A stretch of 64,000 bases of DNA from an uncultured Clostridia bacterium (lineage in GTDB: Bacteria; Bacillota; Clostridia; UBA1381). Both the position numbers and the translations under genes were made by a program. The stretch is taken from the NCBI GenBank assembly GCA_944392335.1, contig CALXWJ010000012.1, positions 1 to 64,000 on the forward strand. Reading direction: 5' to 3'. Below the pieces are notes generated by a model. It did no database searches, was not told the DNA's origin, and saw only the letters and a list, made by a program, of their open reading frames with translations. This document shows positions 43,545-64,000 of the stretch, piece by piece. Position 1 is the stretch's first letter, and each line of letters starts with the position of its first letter.

Positions 43545-43979
43545 ATGGATACACTTTCAAGTAAGGTTTCTTATATCAAAGGTTTGGCTGAGGGCTTGAA
43601 TATAAGCTCTGAAACGGCTGAGGGTAAGGTTTTGTTAAAGCTTATTGATGTTATTGATGAAATGGCCGGGTCATTGGATGATCTGATGGATGCGCATGAT
43701 GAATTGGAAGAAAAAGTTGATGAAATTGATTCCGATCTTGCGGATATTGAAGACTTTATCTATGATGAGGAACTTGATGACGAAAATGATGACGACGAAG
43801 CCGATGATTTTTTCGATGAGGATGACGATGAGTTTTTTGAACTTGAATGTCCTAACTGCGGTGAAGACGTTTTGATTGACTTTGATATGCTTGAGGATGA
43901 TAAAGGTATTATATGCCCCAATTGTCATGAAGCGATTACACTTGAGTTTGACGACGATGACGAAAATAATGAAGAATAA
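43545..43979 (+). CDS. CD1247-N-terminal-domain, acidic zinc-ribbon protein
   Basis: A 144-residue protein found after efp in many clostridia. The N-terminal 50 residues form a helical domain (LSSKVSYIKGLAEGLNISS), followed by a coiled-coil stretch, a very acidic linker of Asp and Glu, and a zinc ribbon with CPNCG and CPNCH. The function is unknown. The conserved place beside efp hints at a translation-linked role, which is only an inference. A GGAGG site precedes the start. Confidence 0.85.
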   Translation: MDTLSSKVSYIKGLAEGLNISSETAEGKVLLKLIDVIDEMAGSLDDLMDAHDELEEKVDEIDSDLADIEDFIYDEELDDENDDDEADDFFDEDDDEFFELECPNCGEDVLIDFDMLEDDKGIICPNCHEAITLEFDDDDENNEE

Positions 43980-43999: not shown

Positions 44000-44165
44000 A
44001 ACTGCGCACACATGTTGTACCCCGCCGTTATCGGCGGCGGGTCCCATATTTGTAATCAGTGAGAGTACAATCTCTCACTGATTACAGCGCAGAAGTGCAG
44101 GGCGATTCACGAATCGCCTGTTTCGCTCATGTCCTTATTGAATTACGGGACAAGCCCTTATTGAA
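44000..44165 (+). repeat. Dispersed structured intergenic repeat (copy F)
   Basis: The longest copy (166 bases), with the best hairpin 2: AATCAGTGAGAG/CTCTCACTGATT, twelve perfect base pairs around TACAAT. Hairpin 1 is CCGCCG/CGGCGG. It carries an extra hairpin, GGCGATT/AATCGCC (44101-44118), inserted where other copies have a short loop. It ends ACAAGCCCTTATTGAAG. Confidence 0.88.
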
Positions 44166-44171
44166 GTTGAC

Positions 44172-44345: not shown

Positions 44346-44390
44346 AAATATATGTAAAATACGATTTCTAAATCTATTAGAGCTCTTTAT

Positions 44391-44532
44391 AACCTAAGCA
44401 AAGATGTCCTCTGCCGTTATCGGCAGCTGGCTGCATATCTGTAATCAGTGAGAGTACAATCTCCCGCTGATCACAGCGTTAGCTATGCTTTACTCTTGTC
44501 CTCGTTGAATAACGGTACAAGCCATTATTAAA
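44391..44532 (+). repeat. Dispersed structured intergenic repeat (copy G)
   Basis: A full 142-base copy with the second left-end type (AACCTAAGCAAAGATGTCC). Hairpin 1 reads CTGCCG/CGGCAG where copy F has CCGCCG/CGGCGG, a compensated pair. Hairpin 2 and the right-hand hairpin (CTTGT/ACAAG) are kept. It ends CCATTATTAAA and is followed by a perfect palindrome TTCCTTAAGGAA (44533-44544). Convergent with the AraC gene. Confidence 0.87.
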
Positions 44533-44579
44533 TTCCTTAAGGAACAATAATGCTTTATAACGGTTTAAAATATATTCGA

Positions 44580-45473: not shown

Positions 45474-45732
45474 GCATGATTTCCTCCTTATTAATATTAT
45501 ACATTTTATGAATTTTTGTATTATATATCTATTTTATATTAATACTAAGGATTTGTCCATTATTCATGTAAAAAAGTACGGATAAACTAACGTATGTGCT
45601 ATGATTACTTATTGAAATTTGTTTAATATGCTGATATAATTTTAATATATTAAAGAATGTTTATGCAAAACACAAATAAATGAGTAGTGTAAAGTGAAAA
45701 TGAAATAATGGCACAACGGTCTAAAAGAATAT

Positions 45733-45793
45733 AACTGCGCCGGCTATACTTTGTTCTTATCCTTGTTGAATAACGGAACATACTCTTATCAAA
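45733..45793 (+). repeat. Internally deleted copy of the dispersed repeat (copy H)
   Basis: The left end ATAACTGCGC is joined directly to the right part (GGCTATACTTTGTTCTTATCC, then GAATAACGG). Hairpins 1 and 2 are missing. The junction lies at a GCGC that occurs at both places in full copies, which suggests deletion between short direct repeats. It sits in the AraC/secreted-cluster intergenic region. Confidence 0.65.
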
Positions 45794-45976: not shown

Positions 45977-48889
45977 ATGAAAAAATTATTATCATTGCTT
46001 TTGGCGGTTTCAATGTTTACAGCTGCAGCCGTGTATGCCGAAACGCCGCGGCAAACGGATACGCAGCCCGGGCTTCTTGATTATACCGTACCGAACACAA
46101 CATTTGCAAACAGAAACAAAATCGGTGTAAATCTGGGACAAATCAAAGTTGTATTTAACTGTGCGGTTACAGAGGAAATGCTGAACAATATTGATTTTAA
46201 AGAAGAGGATGGCACTGAACCGTTGGGAGGAATTATTAAATCAATAGACAAAAACGATGAAAACGGACAAACGGTTATTTTGAAATTTGGGGAACTAAAG
46301 GAAAATACAAAATATTATTTGACGTCAGGCGAGGAGACTGTGGAATATGAGACGATAAAAAAAGATTTGATTGAGGAAGATTTTGATGACTGGAGCACGG
46401 GAGAAATTGATCTGAGCACAGGAGCGATAGCCTCATTTAATGAAAATCCGTCTCTTTATTATCTCTCTCCTTCAGGAGGAAAAATTACTGTTAAAGAAGA
46501 AGATATTGACAAATATATCGAAGTTGAAAATACATCTTTAAACAGTGACCTTATAGTAGGTGCACGCCTTGAAGACAATATAACCGACGGATACATAGTG
46601 TCATTTGCGGATATAAAATACAGTGATGTAGGTGGTAATGATTGTATCGGAGGAATCCAAGGCTGGAATTTTGTAGGTCAAGGCAATGCCGGAATGTCAT
46701 ATTCTGAGCTTGACGGATTTACAGCAAATAACGACGGTTTTTATAATACTATGATAGTAACAAAAAAAATAAATACTGTTTTGAGGGAGGATTCACAGAC
46801 TCAGACAACTGCCGATTTTATTGTGGATGCTTATGATTTGACAGATACGTCTGTTGTTTCGCGTAACAGTAAATTTAATAAGAGTGCCGGCGACAGTAAA
46901 ATTCATACCTCTTCTATTATTAAGATGTATCACCAAGAGGGACAAACAGACGCTAAAATAATGCTTACTTATTATAGAGCAGGACTTTATACCATTCCTG
47001 AGCCGCTTGGGGAAGTTGTTTATGACAGCGCTTCAAAAACAGCTGAATTTATAGTAAATACCGATATTGATGCATCGACTTTAAACTTTGTAAAGGCTGT
47101 TAACGAGACTACAGATACAGAATTAAGCTGCGAAGCCGCATATAATCCTGATTCGCGTAAGATGACCGTAACACTTGAGGGAGATATATATTATCAGAAT
47201 AATATAAAGCTTGATTTATCAGGAGTGAAATCGGCAGACGGTGTAAAATTTGTAGAGCCGGTGAACATTATAAACGATAATGAAGGCGATGTATTTAAAG
47301 AAATGCAGATAATGTATTTTACGCCGGATCCGGAACTGTATAATGAATATACGAATACATTAATGAATCATATAGGAGTTAACCAGGAAAAAATTAAAAT
47401 TGTTTTTGATAAAGAGCTGGATAAAAATACACTTTCCGGTATTACTTTTAAAGATACAAACGGAAATTTGCCGGCCGGGGGAATAGTTTCTGAGATAGAT
47501 AGTGCCGACGTAAGTGGAAGGACCGTTATAGTAAGCTTTGGAGAACTTAAAGAAAATGAAGAATATACATTAACAATTCCTACCACTGTAAAAAGTGTTG
47601 ATAAGGAAGCAATTGCCAAGCGCGTCACAAAAAAGTATACCACAGCTTCCAAAGTCCTTTTAAACGAGGATTTTGATGACTGGGAAACGGGGAGTCTGGG
47701 AATATTTGAAAAAGGAAGTGCAAAGCAGTTAAAACCGGATACCAACCTGTATATTTACAATAAGGATTTAGATACCGAAGTATTTATCGGGGAAGAAAAT
47801 GGAGATAAATATCTTAAAGTGACTGCCGACGCAGATGAATCTGTCCTTAATGTAGGCTCGGTTTATCCATATATGTCTGCATCAAAAATTGTTACCATGG
47901 CGCAAATTAAGGCGAATGGGATAGGCGAATCACCAAAGCTTGGACAAATGAGATTGGGTTCTCTCGCGCGGGACAGCGTAGGAATTGATTTGTATAATGA
48001 CTTGGGTATTCCCTATCCTAATCTTTCATCGGAAATTACTGAAAACGGGTATAAGAAATTTACTGAGGTTACAGTATCGGAAAATATTATTCCGGTGGAG
48101 GGTGAAAATGACAAATTCACTCTTGACTGTACAAATGGGATTATAAATGAAACGGGAGAGATAGAAAACTATTCCGAAAAGACGCTAAGCTGCAATACCT
48201 ATACGGCAAGAATTAATTCCATTTCTTATCTTAGAAATTATAAAGCCGGCGCCGAAGAATTTATAACATCGGTAAATTCGGGATTTTACATGATTCCCGG
48301 TATTGTAGGCGATGCAGAATATGATAAACAAACAGGAATGTTCTCTTTTACGGCTAATACAGACATTGATACCGCGACTTTGGAGAATATTTCGGTCAGC
48401 TCCGGTGAAAAGAGCGCGGCTGTTTCCGATTTGCAGTATGACTCCAAGACAAGAAAAGTTTCATTTAAAATTTCAGATATTGAAGATGATACCGAATATA
48501 TAGTATCGGCGAAAAAAGTAAAATCAGCTGATGGTTTGGAATTTTCAGATATTTACACGTTGAGTAATACTCCTGATTATACTTTTGAGGAAATTTCGGT
48601 GAAAGATGTTTTCGGCGAAGAAACGTTATTTTATAATAACAATTCTTTTACAGTTACAGGCAAGATTATAAAAAATACATCTGCAGATGAAAATGCGATT
48701 CTTTTTGTAGCTCTTTATAATCCCGAGGGCCGTTTGACCGGCGTACAATATATACGGGCAAATGGAAATGAAACCCCTGTGAATATGCATTTTGACATAA
48801 GCGATACTATGAATCCTGATTGGAAACTTTCATATTTTATATGGAATGATGCTATGAAGCCACATGGTATGAAAGAATCTGTTCAATGA
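45977..48889 (+). CDS. Large secreted protein with two Ig/FDDW modules
   Basis: A 970-residue exported protein with a signal peptide (about 1-21, cleaved after VYA). It contains two copies of a module. The module opens with a SbsA-like Ig domain (about 45-120 and 465-555; conserved IGVN..Q.KIVF and FGELKEN), continues with a region that begins EEDFDDWSTG (133-142) or NEDFDDWETG (563-572), and closes with a second Ig-like domain (about 345-430, and again before the C-terminus). I cannot name the middle region. No catalytic domain or SLH domain is seen. It may bind polysaccharide or cross-link to neighbours at the surface. It is divergent from one AraC gene and convergent with another. Confidence 0.8.
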   Translation: MKKLLSLLLAVSMFTAAAVYAETPRQTDTQPGLLDYTVPNTTFANRNKIGVNLGQIKVVFNCAVTEEMLNNIDFKEEDGTEPLGGIIKSIDKNDENGQTVILKFGELKENTKYYLTSGEETVEYETIKKDLIEEDFDDWSTGEIDLSTGAIASFNENPSLYYLSPSGGKITVKEEDIDKYIEVENTSLNSDLIVGARLEDNITDGYIVSFADIKYSDVGGNDCIGGIQGWNFVGQGNAGMSYSELDGFTANNDGFYNTMIVTKKINTVLREDSQTQTTADFIVDAYDLTDTSVVSRNSKFNKSAGDSKIHTSSIIKMYHQEGQTDAKIMLTYYRAGLYTIPEPLGEVVYDSASKTAEFIVNTDIDASTLNFVKAVNETTDTELSCEAAYNPDSRKMTVTLEGDIYYQNNIKLDLSGVKSADGVKFVEPVNIINDNEGDVFKEMQIMYFTPDPELYNEYTNTLMNHIGVNQEKIKIVFDKELDKNTLSGITFKDTNGNLPAGGIVSEIDSADVSGRTVIVSFGELKENEEYTLTIPTTVKSVDKEAIAKRVTKKYTTASKVLLNEDFDDWETGSLGIFEKGSAKQLKPDTNLYIYNKDLDTEVFIGEENGDKYLKVTADADESVLNVGSVYPYMSASKIVTMAQIKANGIGESPKLGQMRLGSLARDSVGIDLYNDLGIPYPNLSSEITENGYKKFTEVTVSENIIPVEGENDKFTLDCTNGIINETGEIENYSEKTLSCNTYTARINSISYLRNYKAGAEEFITSVNSGFYMIPGIVGDAEYDKQTGMFSFTANTDIDTATLENISVSSGEKSAAVSDLQYDSKTRKVSFKISDIEDDTEYIVSAKKVKSADGLEFSDIYTLSNTPDYTFEEISVKDVFGEETLFYNNNSFTVTGKIIKNTSADENAILFVALYNPEGRLTGVQYIRANGNETPVNMHFDISDTMNPDWKLSYFIWNDAMKPHGMKESVQ

Positions 48890-48921
48890 AGAAAAAAGAG
48901 AGATTTGCAGTATAGTAAAAT

Positions 48922-49731
48922 TTAAGAACGCAGATATTTTGAAGGTGAAAACCCGGTGTATTGCCGAAAAGCGCGGGAAAAATATGAAAGATTATTAAAT
49001 CCGGATTTTTCGGCAATTTCACTCATCGCATATTTTTTCTGAGCTATAAGCCCCTGGGCGTGTTTTATTCTCAGAGAATTTATATAAGAAATTACAGTTG
49101 TGTGTGTATACTTTTTAAATTCTCGTGCAAGATGAGCAGGGTTTACTCCTATTTGGGCCGCAACGTCATCAAGGGTAATGGCATTTGTGTAATTTGCTGT
49201 TATATAGCCAAGGGCAGTGCGGATATTGCTGAATGATTTGTTTTTTGATTCGGATATGTTGTTGTATGAGGCTTGGTGGTTTTTCATCAGGTGCAGAATA
49301 ATTTCAAGAGCATATATATCGGCGGACAAATTCCAATATGGCAGCCTGTTATCGCATTCGCCAAGCATTTTGTATAACATCGATACAATATGATTGTCTG
49401 TAAATATGGTGCAAAAAGAAAGCTCGCTTATATCAATTCTGTTTACGCGGCAGAGTTCGGCGTTAACATTTAGTATAAGGAACCTTATTTCGCTGTCGGT
49501 TGAGATAGTGTGCGGATCAAATGAATCAAACACGCATATTTCACCTGTATGAATAGGATACTCATTTAAATGGGAGTAAATAGTTCCGCTTCCGCTGCAA
49601 ATATAAAGGAGTTCGAGGTCTTCATGCCAGTTGATCGGTCTGAAATTCGGCGCTTTTAAATGCTGGCGGCGGATATAAGTATGTGATTTTTCTGATTCGG
49701 GAAAATTAACTTGAAACTCGGCTTTTAACAT
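48922..49731 (-). CDS. AraC family transcriptional regulator
   Basis: A 269-residue regulator with an N-terminal cupin domain (HEDLELLYICSGSG near residues 36-49) and a C-terminal double HTH (IGVNPAHLAREFKKYTHTTVI, and AEKSGFNNLSYFSRAFRQYTGFSPSKYLRS as the end). ATG 49731 is nine bases from AAAGGAG and is preferred to the ATG at 49740 that abuts it. It lies between two genes of the secreted cluster and is divergent from the second, so it probably regulates that gene set. Confidence 0.9.
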   Translation of the reverse strand: MLKAEFQVNFPESEKSHTYIRRQHLKAPNFRPINWHEDLELLYICSGSGTIYSHLNEYPIHTGEICVFDSFDPHTISTDSEIRFLILNVNAELCRVNRIDISELSFCTIFTDNHIVSMLYKMLGECDNRLPYWNLSADIYALEIILHLMKNHQASYNNISESKNKSFSNIRTALGYITANYTNAITLDDVAAQIGVNPAHLAREFKKYTHTTVISYINSLRIKHAQGLIAQKKYAMSEIAEKSGFNNLSYFSRAFRQYTGFSPSKYLRS

Positions 49732-49890
49732 AACAGTCATCTCCTTTAATGGCTTATATATTTATTATATAATAACAAACAGTTATTTTCAAGTGAAAAA
49801 TTGGAATTAAAACCCGTCATAAAAATATGAACATGAAAAACTAAGGCTATAAAAAATAAATTATATTATTGCAAGTGTATATTAGCACTC

Positions 49891-49951
49891 TATCCTCTTA
49901 TCTGCCCGCAGATAAGAGGATAAAAATAAAATGTATTTGCGGGCAGAAAGG
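49891..49951 (+). promoter_or_regulatory. Leader with two mutually exclusive hairpins
   Basis: Stem 1, TATCCTCTTATCTG/CAGATAAGAGGATA (49891-49904 with 49909-49922), is a perfect 14-base hairpin with a four-base loop. Stem 2, TCTGCCCGCA/TGCGGGCAGA (49901-49910 with 49938-49947), is a perfect 10-base match that uses part of stem 1 and ends at the AAAGG ribosome binding site (49947-49951). The two cannot form together. A small ORF (MYLRAER, 49931-49954) overlaps the second arm. This resembles a translational attenuator or riboswitch expression platform for the gene at 49965. Confidence 0.6.
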
Positions 49952-49964
49952 TAATGGAAACGTT

Positions 49965-52900
49965 ATGAAGAAAATATTATCGCTGTTTCTGGCGTCATCA
50001 ATGCTATGTCTAAATATTCAGGCGGCAAAAGCGGAGGAAACTGTAAAATATTCCTATGTAATTCCTAATGTGGAAATGGTAAGCGGAAGAAATATAATAG
50101 GAACAAACCAGGGTGAGATAAGGGTTGTTTTTGAAGGAATACCCCAAAATTTGGAGCAGATAAGCTTTTGCGGTTCAGATGGATATGAGCCTGTTGGCGG
50201 AGTAATAAAGACGCTTGATGAAAATATTCTCAGCTTGAAATTTGCAGAGCTTAAAGAAAATGAAGAATATACACTTACCATTCCGGAAGAGACCGGAATA
50301 GACGCAGAAAAAATTATTAAATTTCAAACCGGAAATAAACTTTTAGTATCGGAAGATTTTGAAGATTGGGAATTGGGAGACGTTACTCCCGACGGCACAG
50401 GATATATGTCGTTTGCGGATAATCCCGATTTAAAAGTAAAAAAGGACGCTTCGGCGGTGTTTGAAATAGAGGAAACTGAGGATGGAGACAAATATCTGAC
50501 CGCGGCAAATTCACAAAAAGGGAAGGATTTGATGATAGGCGCGGAGGTTGATGATATATCAAGAGGCATGATAGATGTTAAGGTTGTCTCGTTGGCCGGT
50601 TTTAAAGAAATGAATGGAAAGGACGCCCCCATGAACGCTGTAGGCGGCTGGTGGGGCTGGTGTTTCGGCGGTGTAAGTCACGAAGGAATAAGGCATCAGA
50701 AATTTAATAACTTTACAAAGAATGAAAACGGATTTTATGAAACCCTTGTAACAACAGAAAAATATGATACTGTGATAAATCCCGATAATACTAACCAGGC
50801 AATTTCGAGAGTGAGAATAACCGCAGAGGATAAAAACAGCGATGAAAAGGTGAGTGAAACAGGGACAAAAACAGCTGCAAAGAATGATTCAAAAGTAGTG
50901 AATGCAGCCGCAGTTAAAATGTATCCGTCGGAGGACAGCTATATTTCGGATAAAATCGGGCTTACATATTATAAGGCGGGATTTTTTACAATGCCCGAAA
51001 TTTGGGGAGAACCGGAATATAACGGAGATACATATACTATGACCATTGGCGTTAATACCGATATGAATCCGGATTCTTTTGAAGGCATAACCGTTACCGA
51101 TGGAGTCAGAAATTATGAAAGACAGGTTTCGTATGACGCGGAGTCAAGAAAAATTTTGGTGACGGTCACTGATAAGATTTTCGATGGTTACAGTTACAGT
51201 GTTAATATAAATGAAGCAGAATCATCAGATGGGTTTAAAATGTCAGGGAAAATTGATTTTACTCACAAAAATGATGCTGATATAGTTATATCCCCTCAGA
51301 TTGAAGACGCATATAACTATAACGGAGAAACGAGAACGCTTACTTTTAATACGAATGTAGAGCTCGACGAAGCATCTCTTGATACAGTCCGTGTAATTGA
51401 TAAGAGGAAGAACAGAGAAATATCTTTCGATTGCATATATGACAATAAAAAGGTGACGATTGTTATTAATGAAAAAATGTATTACGGCTGTGAATATGAG
51501 ATTGTTTTAAAGGGAGTAAAATCGCTGGAAGGTATTGAAATGAAGGATAACCTTGTTATTATTCACAATAATCCTGCAGATGAGCTTAAATTTATACAAT
51601 CCGAATATGCCATTCCTAATCCAAAACTTCGTCAATCTATAAAAAACGGCGTTGAAAGCTATATAGGCTTTGCACATTATATTGGTGTGAATCAAGGATA
51701 TATAAAGCTTGTTTTTGATAAAGATGTGGATGAGCAGACGGCGGATTTTATAACTATTACCGATAGCGGCGGAAGAGCTCCAAAAGGAAGGCTTTTGAAG
51801 ATCGTTGAAGGAAATACGGTAACATTGCAATTCGGAGAACTTCTGCCGGAAACGGACTATACCGTAAGGATTGAAACGGGGCTTACAGGTGTAGACGGTT
51901 CGATTCTTGACGAGTCTGTTGAATATAAATATACAACCCGACCCAAACTGTTTGCTGAAGAGGACTTTTCGGATTTTACAGCAGGAACAGAAGAAAATTA
52001 TACTGACGAGGCAAGTACAGCAATTGCTCTCGGAACAAAGGGAGTTGAAATTGGAAGAGACAAAGAGAGCGACATAAGCGTAAAAGTAGGTCAGACAGAG
52101 AATGGTAAAAAATATGTAGATTTAATAGAAAATATCAACGGTAAAAACCTTATGGTAGGATGGGGCCCAATGGGTCATAATGCAACCGCTTATAACCCGG
52201 TATTCACGGAGGGTGAATTTGCGGCAATAATAGAATATGATATTATACAAGAAGCGGAAGGATATAACGGAAACCTTTCAAGAATGCATCATTATTATTT
52301 TGCCGACAGATATAAGGGTATAAATGCTGCCAATACATCAGAATTTGTAAAAAATGAAGATGGGCTTATGCAAATACAATTATCAGCTAAAAAATATGAT
52401 ACTGTAGAAGCCGGAGTTAACGAATCCGGGTCTATGCTTTATAATACCAAATATTATTCGGGCGCATATGATATGCTCGGCGGAAAGAAGCTGTATTTTG
52501 AAGGTGAAATGAATAACAGCGTAGACGCAGCACAAATCGACACGTATTCAGTAGCGCAGACATATACAAACAACGGAGACCCGGGATATAAAGGAAACGG
52601 AATCAGAATCGGATATATAAAATGCGGGCTGTTCACAATACCGGATCTTATCGGAAGCCCCCAATACAATCAGAATGAAGGTACAGTAAAATATTACATA
52701 AATACAGACCTTGACACTGAGACTGTAAAAAATATTAAGTTATATGATGAAAAGAGCGGCGAGCAGATAGAGACATATGCCTCTTATGATGAGGACGAGA
52801 GACTAATAACTGTAACTCTTTTGGAACCTTTAGGGTATCAGGCAAATTATATAACAGATTTTTCGGGAATACAGTCAATAGACGGATTTGTTTTCGAGGA

Positions 52901-53528
52901 AAATAACACTTTCCGCAACCTCCTTACAATAGAGGATATTACGCAGAGTGTGGAAATTACAAATGACTTTGAAAATGCATATTTAAACATACTTTTTGAA
53001 AACGCAGTCAGTGCAGATAAAAATGATATAACGCTGTATGCACCCGACGGCAGCACTGTTGATTTTGATATGAATATAACCGGTAATGAAATGATGCTGA
53101 AATTTAAAAATAATTTTGATTATAAAAACAGTTACAGTCTTATCATAAGTAAAAATATAAAAAATCTTGCAAAGCCCGATATAAGTTTTGAGAAAGACGC
53201 GCAATATGATTTTATGCTCTGTGATATATTCTCTATAAACAAATTAAATTATACCATAAACGAAACAGGGCTCAGCTGTTCTGCAGAGCTTGTAAATAAT
53301 ATGGAAGACCGGGCTGTGGAGACGCTTGTTACAGTGGCTGTTTTTAATAAAGATAAAAGACTTATAGCGTCAAATTTTGATGTCTATAGTGTTGCGCCGT
53401 CGGACAGTACATCGGTTGAGTATAGCTTTGAAAATGCACAAGACGCCGCATTTATAAAAGTTTACGCGCTCAGCAGGAATCCGGAGCTTAAAACCTTGTA
53501 TAAGGAAACAGTTAAGAATATTGAATAG
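49965..53528 (+). CDS. Very large secreted protein with two Ig/FDDW modules
   Basis: A 1187-residue exported protein with signal peptide (about 1-24, KKILSLFLASSMLCLNIQAAKA). It opens with the same SbsA-like Ig domain as its neighbours (IIGTNQGEIRVVF), then SEDFEDWELGDVTPDGTGYMS near residue 128, a first Ig-like domain, extra Ig-like segments, and a second module starting YIGFAHYIGVNQGYIKLVF with EEDFSDFTAG. No catalytic or SLH domain is recognised. The start is set at ATG 49965, giving a clean signal peptide; the frame is open back to 49869. Its role is probably glycan binding or surface structure. Confidence 0.8.
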   Translation: MKKILSLFLASSMLCLNIQAAKAEETVKYSYVIPNVEMVSGRNIIGTNQGEIRVVFEGIPQNLEQISFCGSDGYEPVGGVIKTLDENILSLKFAELKENEEYTLTIPEETGIDAEKIIKFQTGNKLLVSEDFEDWELGDVTPDGTGYMSFADNPDLKVKKDASAVFEIEETEDGDKYLTAANSQKGKDLMIGAEVDDISRGMIDVKVVSLAGFKEMNGKDAPMNAVGGWWGWCFGGVSHEGIRHQKFNNFTKNENGFYETLVTTEKYDTVINPDNTNQAISRVRITAEDKNSDEKVSETGTKTAAKNDSKVVNAAAVKMYPSEDSYISDKIGLTYYKAGFFTMPEIWGEPEYNGDTYTMTIGVNTDMNPDSFEGITVTDGVRNYERQVSYDAESRKILVTVTDKIFDGYSYSVNINEAESSDGFKMSGKIDFTHKNDADIVISPQIEDAYNYNGETRTLTFNTNVELDEASLDTVRVIDKRKNREISFDCIYDNKKVTIVINEKMYYGCEYEIVLKGVKSLEGIEMKDNLVIIHNNPADELKFIQSEYAIPNPKLRQSIKNGVESYIGFAHYIGVNQGYIKLVFDKDVDEQTADFITITDSGGRAPKGRLLKIVEGNTVTLQFGELLPETDYTVRIETGLTGVDGSILDESVEYKYTTRPKLFAEEDFSDFTAGTEENYTDEASTAIALGTKGVEIGRDKESDISVKVGQTENGKKYVDLIENINGKNLMVGWGPMGHNATAYNPVFTEGEFAAIIEYDIIQEAEGYNGNLSRMHHYYFADRYKGINAANTSEFVKNEDGLMQIQLSAKKYDTVEAGVNESGSMLYNTKYYSGAYDMLGGKKLYFEGEMNNSVDAAQIDTYSVAQTYTNNGDPGYKGNGIRIGYIKCGLFTIPDLIGSPQYNQNEGTVKYYINTDLDTETVKNIKLYDEKSGEQIETYASYDEDERLITVTLLEPLGYQANYITDFSGIQSIDGFVFEENNTFRNLLTIEDITQSVEITNDFENAYLNILFENAVSADKNDITLYAPDGSTVDFDMNITGNEMMLKFKNNFDYKNSYSLIISKNIKNLAKPDISFEKDAQYDFMLCDIFSINKLNYTINETGLSCSAELVNNMEDRAVETLVTVAVFNKDKRLIASNFDVYSVAPSDSTSVEYSFENAQDAAFIKVYALSRNPELKTLYKETVKNIE

Positions 53529-53589
53529 ACCATATATTATCAGGAGGAAATAAGCAATCTTACAATAATGAAAGGGGTTTATATATATT

Positions 53590-56500
53590 ATGAAAAAATT
53601 TTTATCTGTAATTTTGCTTTTTGTGTTGACATTTCAAATAATCGGCGCCGGAAGGGTTGTTTACGGTGAAACAGAACTTTCGTTTTTATATACTATACCA
53701 AGTACAGAATTTGTTGATGGAAGAAGACATATTGGAGTAAATCAAGGGGAAATAAAAATTGTTTTTAACGGCATACCAAACAATGAACTTATGCAGGATA
53801 TAACCTTTTGCGATTCTCTGGGAGAAGAACCGGAGGGAGGAGTTCTCAAAAACATTGAAGATGACAATACAGTTGTTTTAAAATTTGGCGAATTAAAAGA
53901 AAAGGAGAATTATACTCTTAGCATTTCCGATTTAAAAACAGTTATTTATACTACTGTAGATAAAGAGCTTGTAACAGAAAATTTTGATGATTGGGCATTG
54001 GGTGATGTAAGCCCTGATGGAACAGGATATTTTTCTTTCAGTGAAAATACGAGTCTTAAAGGCTACAGCGAGAGCGAAGATATAGAATTTTCGATCTGCG
54101 GAGACGATTCAGATAGGTATTTGAGGATACTGAGTCCGGTTATTAAAAAAAATATGCTTATAGGCGCACAGGCGACAAATAATTTGGTTGACGCCCAGGT
54201 GGTTTCTTTTATAAGCTTCAGAAAGACAAATGAGCAGAATATACCGTCCGCGGCAGAATTTTCAGGGTTAAGGGGATGGACATTTACCGGAAGGCAATAC
54301 AGCGGTTTCGGATATGGAAGCTTTGATAATTTTGAGAAGAATGAAAATGGTTTTTATGAAATAATGTCTGTAAGCAAAAAATATAATTCGGTTTTAAACG
54401 GAAATACAGCAAACGGGAATTTTTCCTGTTGGGCATATGATATGCAAAGCGGCGCAGAGGTGAAAAAAACTTCTTCATACAGTGAAAATCCGTCGGATAG
54501 TAAGGTCTATACTTCTGTTGCTGTAAAATCATATCACACTAAGGAAGAAGATTTAGCTGACTATATAGACCTTACAAGCTACAGAGCGGGTTTTTATACA
54601 TTACCAAAGATATTGGGAGAACCTGAAATAGAGGGCACGAATATATCGTTTTATATTAATACAGATATAAATACAGACGCCCTTTCGCAGATAAGCGTGT
54701 ATCTTGCAGACAGCGGAGAAGAGGCGGCAATAAGCAATTTAAGCTGCAATGGCAGAAAAATATCCTTTACCACCGGTACAACCCTTTCCGGTAAGGACTA
54801 TACAATAGATTTCGCAAATATGCAGTCCGACGACGGACTATACATCGAGCCTTACAGATGTGATAACGCTTTTTATGCAAATATTTCCCAAAATCAAAAT
54901 ATCGATATATATATTTCTCCCAACGGGAATGATTACAACAGCGGAGGCCAAGGCTTGCCGATTCAAACAATTAAAAGATTATCGGAGATGTTATATAAAA
55001 TAAACGATATGGGTTTCGGCGGCAGTGTGAAAGTAAATTTTTCGGATGGCATATATAGATTTTTTGAGCCTTTTGTTATTGACGCAATTAATTACAGCCT
55101 TGAAATAAACGGCAGCGACGCCACGGTTTTTACCACAGCAGAAACAGTAGGACAGCAGAGTATAAAACCTATTGATACAAATATAAAAAATCGGCTTTCG
55201 GAAAGTGTAAAGAACAGCGTTGTTGCAATAGATTTGGATAAATATGTCCCGGTACGGTATCAGGACCCTCTCAGAGGTTCAATGTATAAAGGATTTTGCC
55301 TTTATAATGCCGATGATGAGGAAAAGATATGTTCATACCCCAATGACGGTTTTATAACACTGAATAACAGTGATTTTGAAAAGGTCAGCGAAACTATACA
55401 GGCAGATAACTCTGTTTTGAAAACGTATCACATAAGCCTGCCGCGTGCGGAGCACTGGAGTGATGCAGACGTATATGTCGAGGGATATCTTGAATGGATG
55501 TGGTCATACTATAGGCTGAAAGATGTTGCCAGCGATAGTCTTAATAAAAAGCTTATTATGAATACTAAAGCAACCCTTAAGGAGGAAGACAGGCTTAAGC
55601 TTTTGAATGTATTGGAGGAAATTGACGTTCCGGGCGAATGGTGCGCGGAGAATGGAACAGCTTATTATTATCCGAAAAATAATAATGGTCTTGAAATTTC
55701 AAGGGCGCAAATAAATTTACTTTCTCTTTCCAATACCGACAACCTTGTTATAAGCGGCATAACCTTTAAAAATATTGCCGGGGAAGCTATACAAATAAGC
55801 GAATGTGACGGGCTTACAATTCAGGACTGTGAATTTGTAAATATCGGAAAGGCTGCTGTAATAAGTGACGCCAATACAGAGATAAGAAATGCAGATATAA
55901 AAAATAATTATTTTGAAAATATCAGTTATATAGGTATAGATATAACCGGAGGCGACAGGGGAACGCTTACGGAATCGGAAAATGAGATTTCACAAAATGT
56001 GTTTAACAATATTGCGACCTTTGCCAGGGCTTATTCGCCTGCGATCAAGGTTAATGGAGTGGGTAATACCGTATCATATAATACAATACGCAACAGTCCG
56101 CATATGTGTATTGGATTTTCCGGTTCAAAAAACAAAATTCTCTATAATTATATTACAGAAGCCTGCCGTGAAACCGGCGACTGCGGTGCAATATATGCAG
56201 GGCGTGATTTTACATGGGTAGATAATGAAATAGCGTATAATTACATAGAAAATGCCCTCATTACCGACGCCGATATGCTTTCCTCGTGGAGAAGCTCTTT
56301 TCAGACGGGAATTTATATGGATGACAGACTCAGCGGGAGCCATATTCATCATAATTATATAAAAAATGCCGTGAGAGGAATATTTATCGGGGCAGGCTCC
56401 AATTCGAATATACATGATAATGTTATTGAAAATTGCAGTGTATCGGGAATAAGGATAGGAGGCGCACAGGATCTCCAATTCAATGATGATACATTGGTGC

Positions 56501-57345
56501 AGGCCGCCATTGAATATTTTGAAGAATATCCCATATATCTTACAGAATATCCGTATCTTTTAAATATTATCAATGAAGAAACTTATACAACACAGCCTCA
56601 TAACAACAATGTAGCTAACAATATTTATGTGGGAGCCGTACCTTCGGAAGGAGCTGCAAGCGGAAATGAAAATGAAATCAATTCTCAATACAGCAATAAT
56701 GTGATATATACAGATATAAACCAGGCTCTTGCAGACAAAGGGATAAACCTTCAAAACTTTAATTACAGCGGCATAGGGACACAATTGCGGTTAAGATATC
56801 CTAAAGATGAAGAAAGTTATCTTTCCGCGGAAAAAATAGAATTTGGATGGGAGCTTATGCCGGGAGCGAAGGAATATGTATTGACTTTAAAAGATAATAA
56901 CGGCACTAAGCTGGATGAGGTAACAACAAGAAATACTTACTGCACCTTAACCGATATAGGTGAAGCGGAGTATTATATATGGCAGGTGAAAGCGGTCACC
57001 GGAAAAGATACTTTTGTTTTATCGCAAGAGTACAAATTCACTGCTAATATGCCCGTAAATGCAGAAAAAATATTGTTTAAAACATCAGAAGGAAGAAACG
57101 TTCAAAATATTGAGAAAGCTAAAAAATTCAGAATAGAAGGTATAAGCGGTGAAAGCTGTAAGGTGGTTATAGGAGTATATAATGATGGAATGTTAAAACA
57201 AGTTATGATAAATGACCCCCAAGAAAACTATGCGCTTCCATATATGCAGAGGCAGGATACAATATCGGTATGCATAATGGACAGTTTGCAGGGACTAAAG
57301 CCATTGTCATATAAGCTTACCGTAGGATATACAGGTAAAGAATAA
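53590..57345 (+). CDS. Secreted Ig/FDDW module fused to a GH141-like beta-helix
   Basis: A 1251-residue exported protein (signal peptide about 1-26). The N-terminal third is one module of the type found in the two preceding genes (HIGVNQGEIKIVF, then NFDDWALGDVSPDGTG near 135). From about residue 445 a GH141-like parallel beta-helix begins (IDIYISPNGNDYNSGGQGLPI), with the family segment NVLEEIDVPGEW then AYYYP around 675-695, and GIYMDDRLSGSHIHHNYI near 900. A fibronectin-like domain follows (about 1065-1155). A secreted glycanase with its own targeting module is the simplest reading. Confidence 0.8.
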   Translation: MKKFLSVILLFVLTFQIIGAGRVVYGETELSFLYTIPSTEFVDGRRHIGVNQGEIKIVFNGIPNNELMQDITFCDSLGEEPEGGVLKNIEDDNTVVLKFGELKEKENYTLSISDLKTVIYTTVDKELVTENFDDWALGDVSPDGTGYFSFSENTSLKGYSESEDIEFSICGDDSDRYLRILSPVIKKNMLIGAQATNNLVDAQVVSFISFRKTNEQNIPSAAEFSGLRGWTFTGRQYSGFGYGSFDNFEKNENGFYEIMSVSKKYNSVLNGNTANGNFSCWAYDMQSGAEVKKTSSYSENPSDSKVYTSVAVKSYHTKEEDLADYIDLTSYRAGFYTLPKILGEPEIEGTNISFYINTDINTDALSQISVYLADSGEEAAISNLSCNGRKISFTTGTTLSGKDYTIDFANMQSDDGLYIEPYRCDNAFYANISQNQNIDIYISPNGNDYNSGGQGLPIQTIKRLSEMLYKINDMGFGGSVKVNFSDGIYRFFEPFVIDAINYSLEINGSDATVFTTAETVGQQSIKPIDTNIKNRLSESVKNSVVAIDLDKYVPVRYQDPLRGSMYKGFCLYNADDEEKICSYPNDGFITLNNSDFEKVSETIQADNSVLKTYHISLPRAEHWSDADVYVEGYLEWMWSYYRLKDVASDSLNKKLIMNTKATLKEEDRLKLLNVLEEIDVPGEWCAENGTAYYYPKNNNGLEISRAQINLLSLSNTDNLVISGITFKNIAGEAIQISECDGLTIQDCEFVNIGKAAVISDANTEIRNADIKNNYFENISYIGIDITGGDRGTLTESENEISQNVFNNIATFARAYSPAIKVNGVGNTVSYNTIRNSPHMCIGFSGSKNKILYNYITEACRETGDCGAIYAGRDFTWVDNEIAYNYIENALITDADMLSSWRSSFQTGIYMDDRLSGSHIHHNYIKNAVRGIFIGAGSNSNIHDNVIENCSVSGIRIGGAQDLQFNDDTLVQAAIEYFEEYPIYLTEYPYLLNIINEETYTTQPHNNNVANNIYVGAVPSEGAASGNENEINSQYSNNVIYTDINQALADKGINLQNFNYSGIGTQLRLRYPKDEESYLSAEKIEFGWELMPGAKEYVLTLKDNNGTKLDEVTTRNTYCTLTDIGEAEYYIWQVKAVTGKDTFVLSQEYKFTANMPVNAEKILFKTSEGRNVQNIEKAKKFRIEGISGESCKVVIGVYNDGMLKQVMINDPQENYALPYMQRQDTISVCIMDSLQGLKPLSYKLTVGYTGKE

Positions 57346-62741: not shown

Positions 62742-64000
62742 ATGAAAAGAATTATTGCATTTATTATTGCCTTGTCGTGTATAGTTTCATCGTCTGTTAT
62801 AGGCAATGCGGAACAAAGCTACGGTTCGGATATTGCCTTGGAAGTGATTGCCGGTCTTGGTATATTGGAATATACCACGCCTGAAGATACAATCACCAGA
62901 GGCGATTTTGCCCTATCTATGTATAACATGCTGTTTAAGGATGCAGGCGAGGATGAACCGACCTGGGAAGAGAACTTTTTTGGTGAATTTGTTTCGGACG
63001 ACCAACTTATTACTGATGAAGGAGACGTTAAGGAAATTTCCTTGTTTTGGGACGTTACCTCAGAAAGTGAATATTATGACGCCGTAATGTATGGGGTAAG
63101 AATAGGCATTTTTGAGGGTGTAGGCAGAGGAAGCTTTAAGCCGGAAGAAAACGTAACGGTTATTCAGGTTGTAAAAACACTTCTTACACTAATGGGCTAT
63201 AAAAATTATGCTGAGGCGGAGGGAGGATATCCAAACGGATATTTAAGCCTTGCCGTCAGCATGGGTATTTTGAAGGGTGTGGAAAACGCTGTATATGACG
63301 ACGCTTCGGTTGCCGATACGGCAAGAATAATTTACAATTGTTTTGATAATTTCTGCTTTGAAATTGAAAGCTTTTCAGCAGATGCAATAGGTCTTGCCCC
63401 CGATTCCTCGCAGACATTTTTAAATAAGTTTCTAAAGCTTGATTATATAGAGGGTATTGTGATGGATAACGGAATTTATGCCCTTGACGGAGAGAGCGAT
63501 ATTCCAAAAAACAGTGTAAAAATCGGAGATAAAATTCTCTATACTACCAAGGAACAGATGCGCAAGATGAGAGAAAATACCGCAAAGCAAGTAATTGCAT
63601 ATTATTCTATAGATAACGATACAGAAGACGAACTGGTATGTGCGGTGGTGGAGAAGGATGAAAGCATCAGCATAGCCCCTCAGGATTTTGAAGATTATGA
63701 TTCCGGCAAAATTTCATATTACAGCGACGGGAGAACCCGTATCTTGAATCTCGACGCAGGGGCAAGGATGATCTATAACGGAGAATACAGACCAAGCTTT
63801 TCAAAAGAAGATTTTATTTTTGACAGGGGAAGCATAAGGGTGGCAAAAACCCAAAAAAACGGTAAATATGATTGTATAATTATTGAAAACTACACATCTT
63901 GGTATATAGAGAGCATAGATTATGATAAATATTTAATTTATAACGGAGCAAAGGATTCGTCTTCCGAAACTGACGATGTATTGCTGGAGCTTGAGGAAAT
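62742..64000 (+). CDS. SLH-domain secreted protein, cut by the window end
   Basis: An exported protein with a signal peptide (KRIIAFIIALSCIVSSSVIGNA) and N-terminal SLH repeats (YGSDIALEVIAGLGILEYTT, YDAVMYGVRIGIFEGVGRG, then YLSLAVSMGILKGVENAVY). The frame is open to 64000 with no stop, so at least 419 residues are coded. After the SLH region the sequence is beta-rich with no recognised domain. ATG 62742 is chosen; ATG 62733, closer to AAGGAG, is in the same frame and equally possible. Confidence 0.82.
   Translation, partial: MKRIIAFIIALSCIVSSSVIGNAEQSYGSDIALEVIAGLGILEYTTPEDTITRGDFALSMYNMLFKDAGEDEPTWEENFFGEFVSDDQLITDEGDVKEISLFWDVTSESEYYDAVMYGVRIGIFEGVGRGSFKPEENVTVIQVVKTLLTLMGYKNYAEAEGGYPNGYLSLAVSMGILKGVENAVYDDASVADTARIIYNCFDNFCFEIESFSADAIGLAPDSSQTFLNKFLKLDYIEGIVMDNGIYALDGESDIPKNSVKIGDKILYTTKEQMRKMRENTAKQVIAYYSIDNDTEDELVCAVVEKDESISIAPQDFEDYDSGKISYYSDGRTRILNLDAGARMIYNGEYRPSFSKEDFIFDRGSIRVAKTQKNGKYDCIIIENYTSWYIESIDYDKYLIYNGAKDSSSETDDVLLELEE

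Follow-up and report, generated by a model that had tools for sequence, protein, structure and literature searches.

The concanavalin A-like jelly roll is among the commonest carbohydrate-associated folds and often serves glycan recognition. One described protein with such a domain is BT3986 of Bacteroides, which combines an immunoglobulin (Ig)-type DUF1735 domain with a LamG3 domain and has been described as a SusE/F-type surface sugar-binding protein (PMC11216935). Orphan jelly rolls are also present in other large secreted proteins related to carbohydrates, such as TtX122A/B and Cip1, and X122 has a conserved patch and no known ligand (PMC10916295). The assembly domains of the Bacillus anthracis S-layer protein Sap (6qx4, 9g93) are chains of Ig-like beta-sandwiches. 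Here we describe three secreted proteins, named P1, P2 and P3, that are built from repeated copies of one module, a region with a predicted jelly-roll fold placed between two Ig-like domains. They are encoded in a window of 64,000 nucleotides (nt) from an uncultured Clostridia bacterium (GCA_944392335.1, contig CALXWJ010000012.1, forward strand, positions 1-64,000).

The module shares with the concanavalin A-like/LamG domains (Laminin_G_3), including the LamG-type carbohydrate-binding modules (CBMs), a predicted two-sheet jelly roll over the whole region and a link to carbohydrate enzymes, and it has the E-D-F-x-D-W/Y opening and the KYL strand in common with LamG-like domains of the same genome. 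The differences are that none of its copies is recognised by a Pfam model for LamG or CBM, and that the last strand of its middle region has YYRAGFYTIP in place of the x-D-D/N-I-x-V usual in LamG domains. Proteins of the BT3986 and SusE/F type likewise combine an Ig spacer with a jelly roll in a polysaccharide locus, with no enzyme in the protein, but the module proteins are found in a Gram-positive-type setting with S-layer homology (SLH) proteins, have Big_5 instead of DUF1735, carry Ig domains on both sides of the jelly roll and up to two modules in tandem, and show no lipoprotein signal above the cut-off. TtX122A/B and Cip1 match the model of the middle region with Z scores of about 10-11 and have no detectable sequence relation to it. 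The Sap domains were the top Foldseek matches of the whole-module model, but with template modelling (TM) scores of only 0.11-0.22, and P1-P3, unlike Sap, lack SLH repeats; as far as we know, the Ig domains of Sap are not interrupted by a jelly roll.

Five copies of one module in three secreted proteins

P1, P2 and P3 are the products of three neighbouring open reading frames (ORFs), each with a classical-looking signal peptide (Table 1). They carry exactly five copies (two in P1, A and B; two in P2, A and B; one in P3) of a module about 410 residues long, in which a first Ig-like domain is followed by a middle region of about 210 residues and by a second Ig-like domain. The first Ig domain of each copy contains the motifs IGVNxGxIKVVF and FGELKEN, the middle region opens with E-[DN]-F-[DES]-D-[WF], and the second Ig domain contains NTD[ILM][DN]. 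These landmarks (first Ig domain/opening/second Ig domain) lie at residues 46/133/360 (A) and 464/563/792 (B) of P1, at residues 45/129/356 of P3 and, counted from position 49953, at residues 46/133/367 (A) and 575/669/916 (B) of P2. We have taken the ATG at 49965 as the start of P2, and the ORF list begins at a TTG located 96 nt upstream.

The pairwise identity between whole modules is 25-39%. The first copies (P1A, P2A and P3, the A-type) are mutually closest, with 33-39% identity, and the second copies (B-type) are more distant, with 25-30%. Comparisons between modules by BLASTP gave E values from 9e-62 to 8e-29. The repetition is far above chance, since a profile built from the A-type middle regions of P1A, P2A and P3 retrieved those of P2B (E value 1e-13) and P1B (8e-10) far beyond the best value given by 2000 shuffles (0.045). 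E values of 6e-10 and 3e-16 were likewise obtained for middle regions that had been kept out of the profile. An earlier note on this DNA had claimed at least five copies of an Ig/middle region/Ig module in three adjacent secreted proteins, and the motifs that it quoted are where it had placed them. The layout holds in all five copies, with the correction that P2 also has two extra Ig-like domains, and the three genes are neighbours, but an AraC-type regulator is encoded on the opposite strand between P1 and P2.

The first Ig domain scored above the Pfam gathering cut-off for Big_5 (SbsA-type, PF13205) in P1B (34 bits) and P2B (33.7 bits), in agreement with the SbsA likeness that had been proposed for it, and one extra Ig domain of P2 also reached this cut-off. 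The remaining Ig domains fall below it and were assigned by homology to the P1B and P2B copies, the second Ig domain of the module being a weaker relative of Big_5.

Table 1. Position of the modules, their domains and the surrounding genes in the window
Feature	Coordinates	Strand	Remarks
AraC-type regulator upstream of P1	44580..45473	-	
P1	45977..48889	+	970 aa; signal peptide, modules A + B, C-terminal beta domain
P1 module A, first Ig (Big_5-like)	46064..46363	+	homology to P1B/P2B Big_5
P1 module A, jelly-roll middle region (predicted; EEDFDDW...YTIP)	46373..46999	+	
P1 module A, second Ig-like domain (VNTDID)	47000..47311	+	
P1 module B, first Ig	47309..47650	+	Pfam Big_5
P1 module B, jelly-roll middle region (predicted)	47663..48298	+	
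P1 module B, second Ig-like domain (ANTDID)	48299..48592	+	
AraC-type regulator between P1 and P2	48922..49740	-	
P2	49965..53528	+	signal peptide, modules A + B, two extra Ig-like domains, C-terminal domain
P2 module A, first Ig (Big_5-like)	50034..50340	+	
P2 module A, jelly-roll middle region (predicted)	50349..50996	+	
P2 module A, second Ig-like domain (VNTDMN)	50997..51299	+	
P2 extra Ig-like domain	51300..51590	+	Big_5, 24.6 bits
P2 module B, first Ig	51594..51950	+	Big_5
P2 module B, jelly-roll middle region (predicted)	51957..52643	+	
P2 module B, second Ig-like domain (INTDLD)	52644..52949	+	
P3	53590..57345	+	1251 aa; signal peptide, one module, GH141-like right-handed beta-helix, FN3-like + C-terminal domains
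P3 module, first Ig	53668..53964	+	residues 1-99 of the model matched by solved Ig domains
P3 module, jelly-roll middle region (predicted)	53974..54606	+	copy used for the structure prediction
P3 module, second Ig-like domain (INTDIN)	54607..54885	+	weak Big_5
P3 GH141-like beta-helix	54892..56634	+	conserved D (GDCGAIY, aa 864) and DD (GIYMDD, aa 911-912)
P4	57358..60963	+	second GH141-like beta-helix protein, starting 12 nt after P3
P5	61009..62718	+	three C-terminal SLH repeats

The closest described relatives of the putative enzyme domain of P3, and of P4, are the GH141 proteins, among them Xyn141E and BT_1002 (5mqp), the founder of the family. A profile of six paralogues of about 30% identity (P3, P4 and four others) matched BT_1002 with an E value of 9e-27, and the single-protein matches were 2e-9 for P4 and only 0.18 for P3; P4 also gave a sub-threshold Pfam match to GH141_M. 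By sequence profile, P3 and P4 are GH141-like beta-helix proteins related to BT_1002, P3 distantly, and for P3 the earlier note had proposed a GH141-like enzyme. All six paralogues conserve D864 and D911/D912 of P3, but the HMMER alignment stops short of D523/D564 of BT_1002, the mutated pair named in PMC12786026 and PMC10154630. Using P3 as query, more than 60 GH141-like beta-helix matches were found in the 3.6 megabase genome and 37 in a congener; a review reports at most two GH141 genes in any one genome, its count being of annotated fucosidase families (PMC10154630).

Predicted fold of the middle region

The middle region has no match among described sequence families, as the earlier note had stated. 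A Pfam hmmscan of the five middle regions with E values up to 10 returned no LamG or CBM model and only noise in single copies, and the middle-region profile had no match among the PDB sequences. The likenesses to LipL32, EST1 and others (E value about 0.01) were dismissed, each being present in one copy only.

The structure prediction that the earlier note had suggested gave a different outcome. An AlphaFold2 model of the P3 middle region, built on the alignment of the five sequences, is all-beta, in agreement with the beta-rich character claimed for it, with a mean predicted local distance difference test (pLDDT) score of 70.7 and a predicted TM-score (pTM) of 0.72. When compared with solved structures, this model matched concanavalin A-like jelly rolls along residues 1-215. 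The best match was 5mqr, a domain of the sialidase BT_1020 (Z 12.5, 171 residues aligned, 3.7 Å), level with the PL36 alginate lyase Aly36B (Z 12.5, 191 aligned, 3.9 Å), followed by TtX122 (about 11), the lectin domain of galactocerebrosidase (10.8), CBM4 (10.4), C-terminal domains of GH43 enzymes (about 10.4) and legume lectins (9.7); the 50 entries listed have Z scores from 12.5 to 9.5 and are mostly known jelly rolls. Foldseek placed legume lectins first (E value 3e-6), and a viral fold library gave generic lectin-like matches only. A separate run on the whole module yielded an Ig domain (residues 1-99), a jelly roll (97-311; Aly36B, Z 11.2) and a second Ig domain (311-402). A wholly new fold was rejected, as both runs gave a jelly roll with Z scores of up to 12.5, the tool quoting Z 7-8 for unmatched models. 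The jelly-roll class of the predicted fold is well supported but its details are not, because the Foldseek TM-scores are low (about 0.3-0.4).

The middle region can therefore be assigned to a predicted fold class, contrary to what the earlier note had held, and its opening motif points in the same direction. Profile searches of related genomes gave weak matches that were limited to the first 55 positions and fell in large secreted proteins. Among these are a 1507-residue protein of the same genome (contig C81), a close relative of it in a congener and an esterase-like protein. On direct reading, the matched stretches have an ordinary LamG-like look (EDFEDYxxG ... NGNKYLKI ... YRIDNIAV), and Pfam names no family for them either. 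A profile-profile comparison (hhalign) of the EDFxDW...DKYL region with LamG-like domains of the genome and family aligned the first 57 columns with 89% probability (E value 2.5e-6). Since this opening recurs in LamG-like domains of the genome and family, the most likely reading of E-D-F-D-D-W is that it forms the first strand of a LamG-like sandwich, and by analogy it may help to form the structural calcium site usual in LamG-like folds. The 1507-residue protein combines LamG-like domains, Big_5 domains and a GDSL esterase, and so proteins that join Ig domains, a jelly roll and a carbohydrate enzyme also occur outside the P1-P3 locus.

Proposed glycan capture and the alternatives

We propose, with a probability of about 0.6, that the modules are LamG-type jelly rolls carried on Ig spacers whose most likely role is to bind or capture glycans, fused in P3 to a GH141-like enzyme. 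The jelly roll between two SbsA/Big_5-type Ig domains would bind a polysaccharide and, in P3, would keep the GH141-like enzyme on its substrate. P1 and P2, which are secreted and apparently non-catalytic (no catalytic domain was found in them by Pfam scans), would use their two modules each to retain chains or released fragments close to the cell, the Ig domains spacing the parts. This proposal is supported by BT3986, a surface sugar-binding protein with the same layout of Ig spacer and LamG domain. The gene context is also that of carbohydrate degradation, with the GH141-like P3 and P4, SLH proteins and AraC regulators. P2-P6 share one strand, with intergenic gaps of 61, 12, 45 and 14 nt, and look like one operon under AraC control.

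Several observations weigh against this proposal. By sequence, the middle region matches none of the CBM or LamG families, and the confidence of its model is moderate, with an alignment of only five sequences, some loops with pLDDT below 50 and the low TM-scores mentioned above. An aromatic GWxF loop common to the A-type copies, with its tryptophan at residue 230 of P3 in the sequence RGWTF, is absent from both B-type copies, and no cell-surface anchor was found in P1-P3. In addition, TtX122, alike in fold, showed neither clear plant cell wall binding nor activity (PMC10916295).

A more ambitious version, which we consider tentative and somewhat doubtful, is that the five jelly rolls form a new CBM family in which the A-type and B-type specificities differ, P1 and P2 acting as two-site capture proteins tuned to the products of the neighbouring GH141-like enzymes, a SusE/F counterpart outside Bacteroidota. 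The earlier note had suggested a new carbohydrate-binding domain. Such a role is plausible and the middle region is a new sequence family, but, given the predicted fold, it does not appear to be a new kind of domain.

A purely structural jelly roll is rather unlikely, but it is the most probable of the alternatives; the Ig-jelly roll-Ig units would then build a rigid stalk or a surface layer, and no copy would bind sugar. The loss of the aromatic loop from the two B-type copies, the lack of a recognisable enzyme in P1 and P2, the failure of X122 to bind and the resemblance of the Ig domains to assembly domains of an S-layer protein would all fit this explanation, the last being also the only basis of the surface-assembly role suggested by the earlier note. 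However, S-layer proteins of the Sap type normally carry SLH repeats, which Pfam detected in P5 and P6 only and in none of P1-P3, and binding is favoured by the fusion to an enzyme in P3, by the location of the genes in an operon with enzymes and by a fold that frequently serves in glycan recognition.

It is improbable that the modules serve protein-protein adhesion, binding each other or the SLH proteins P5 and P6 to build an enzyme complex on the cell. P2-P6 are indeed close together on one strand (gaps of 12-61 nt), and P1-P3 need some means of staying near the cell, but Pfam scans of the window proteins showed no dockerin, cohesin or sortase-type signal. Finally, it is most improbable that the jelly roll has enzyme activity of its own, like the PL36, PL7 or PL14 lyases of shared fold. 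Although Aly36B is a joint best structural match, the residues invariant in the sequence alignment of the five copies are only E, F, D, G, Y and P, with no His, Arg, Lys or Gln; a candidate catalytic domain is already present in P3, and the near-equal structural matches include many non-catalytic domains.

Surroundings, distribution and significance of the module array

An NCBIfam scan gave nothing informative. Further features of the window proteins were observed. The C-terminal domains of P1 (to 48889) and P3 (to 57345) have the ending W-[DN]-x...M-x-P-[LY] or a variant of it. This type of domain has no Pfam name and recurs in many secreted proteins of the genome, with about ten other large ORFs in L082-L097; it is perhaps a sorting or attachment domain. 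Other LamG-like stretches without a Pfam match were recognised by eye at the C-terminus of P4 (59935-60960) and in P6 (about 63180-63998, with QDFEDYDSGKISYY).

No full-length middle region was found elsewhere in degenerate-pattern scans of 84,980 genomes plus viral contigs, whose first-look filters are not exhaustive, nor by profile searches of the order (95 genomes), of 391 class and 398 phylum genomes and of plasmids, metagenome contigs lying outside the searched set. The congeners, whose assemblies are fragmented, have none either, and the module array is apparently species-specific. A weak match in G060 (L009) was discarded as a low-complexity protein, and class-level matches with E values of 0.005-0.1 (such as L020-L029, of which only L020 was read) were short and not credible.

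Two congeners share genes with this genome up to about position 43979 and then diverge. Where the synteny ends lies a repeat about 165 nt long that contains several hairpins (44000-44166, 44390-44534 and a partial copy at 45731-45793; RNA fold z -6.9). It has at least 35 further genomic copies, mostly 80-94% identical (40 scored of 304 candidates), and no Rfam match, and it may be a mobile element similar to a miniature inverted-repeat transposable element (MITE) or a structured RNA repeat. A congener (G003, contig C19; L110, 1-1431) has a DNA cytosine methyltransferase gene where the repeats and the P1-P6 array begin here, which suggests a variable site.

As a type of domain, the middle region adds little, since it fills a gap in family coverage and not in concepts, and the Ig/lectin-fold/Ig layout is ordinary among polysaccharide-handling proteins. 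If the modules do bind glycans, their jelly rolls would found a CBM family that no current sequence model recognises, and would reveal substrate capture in a bacterium very rich in GH141-like proteins.

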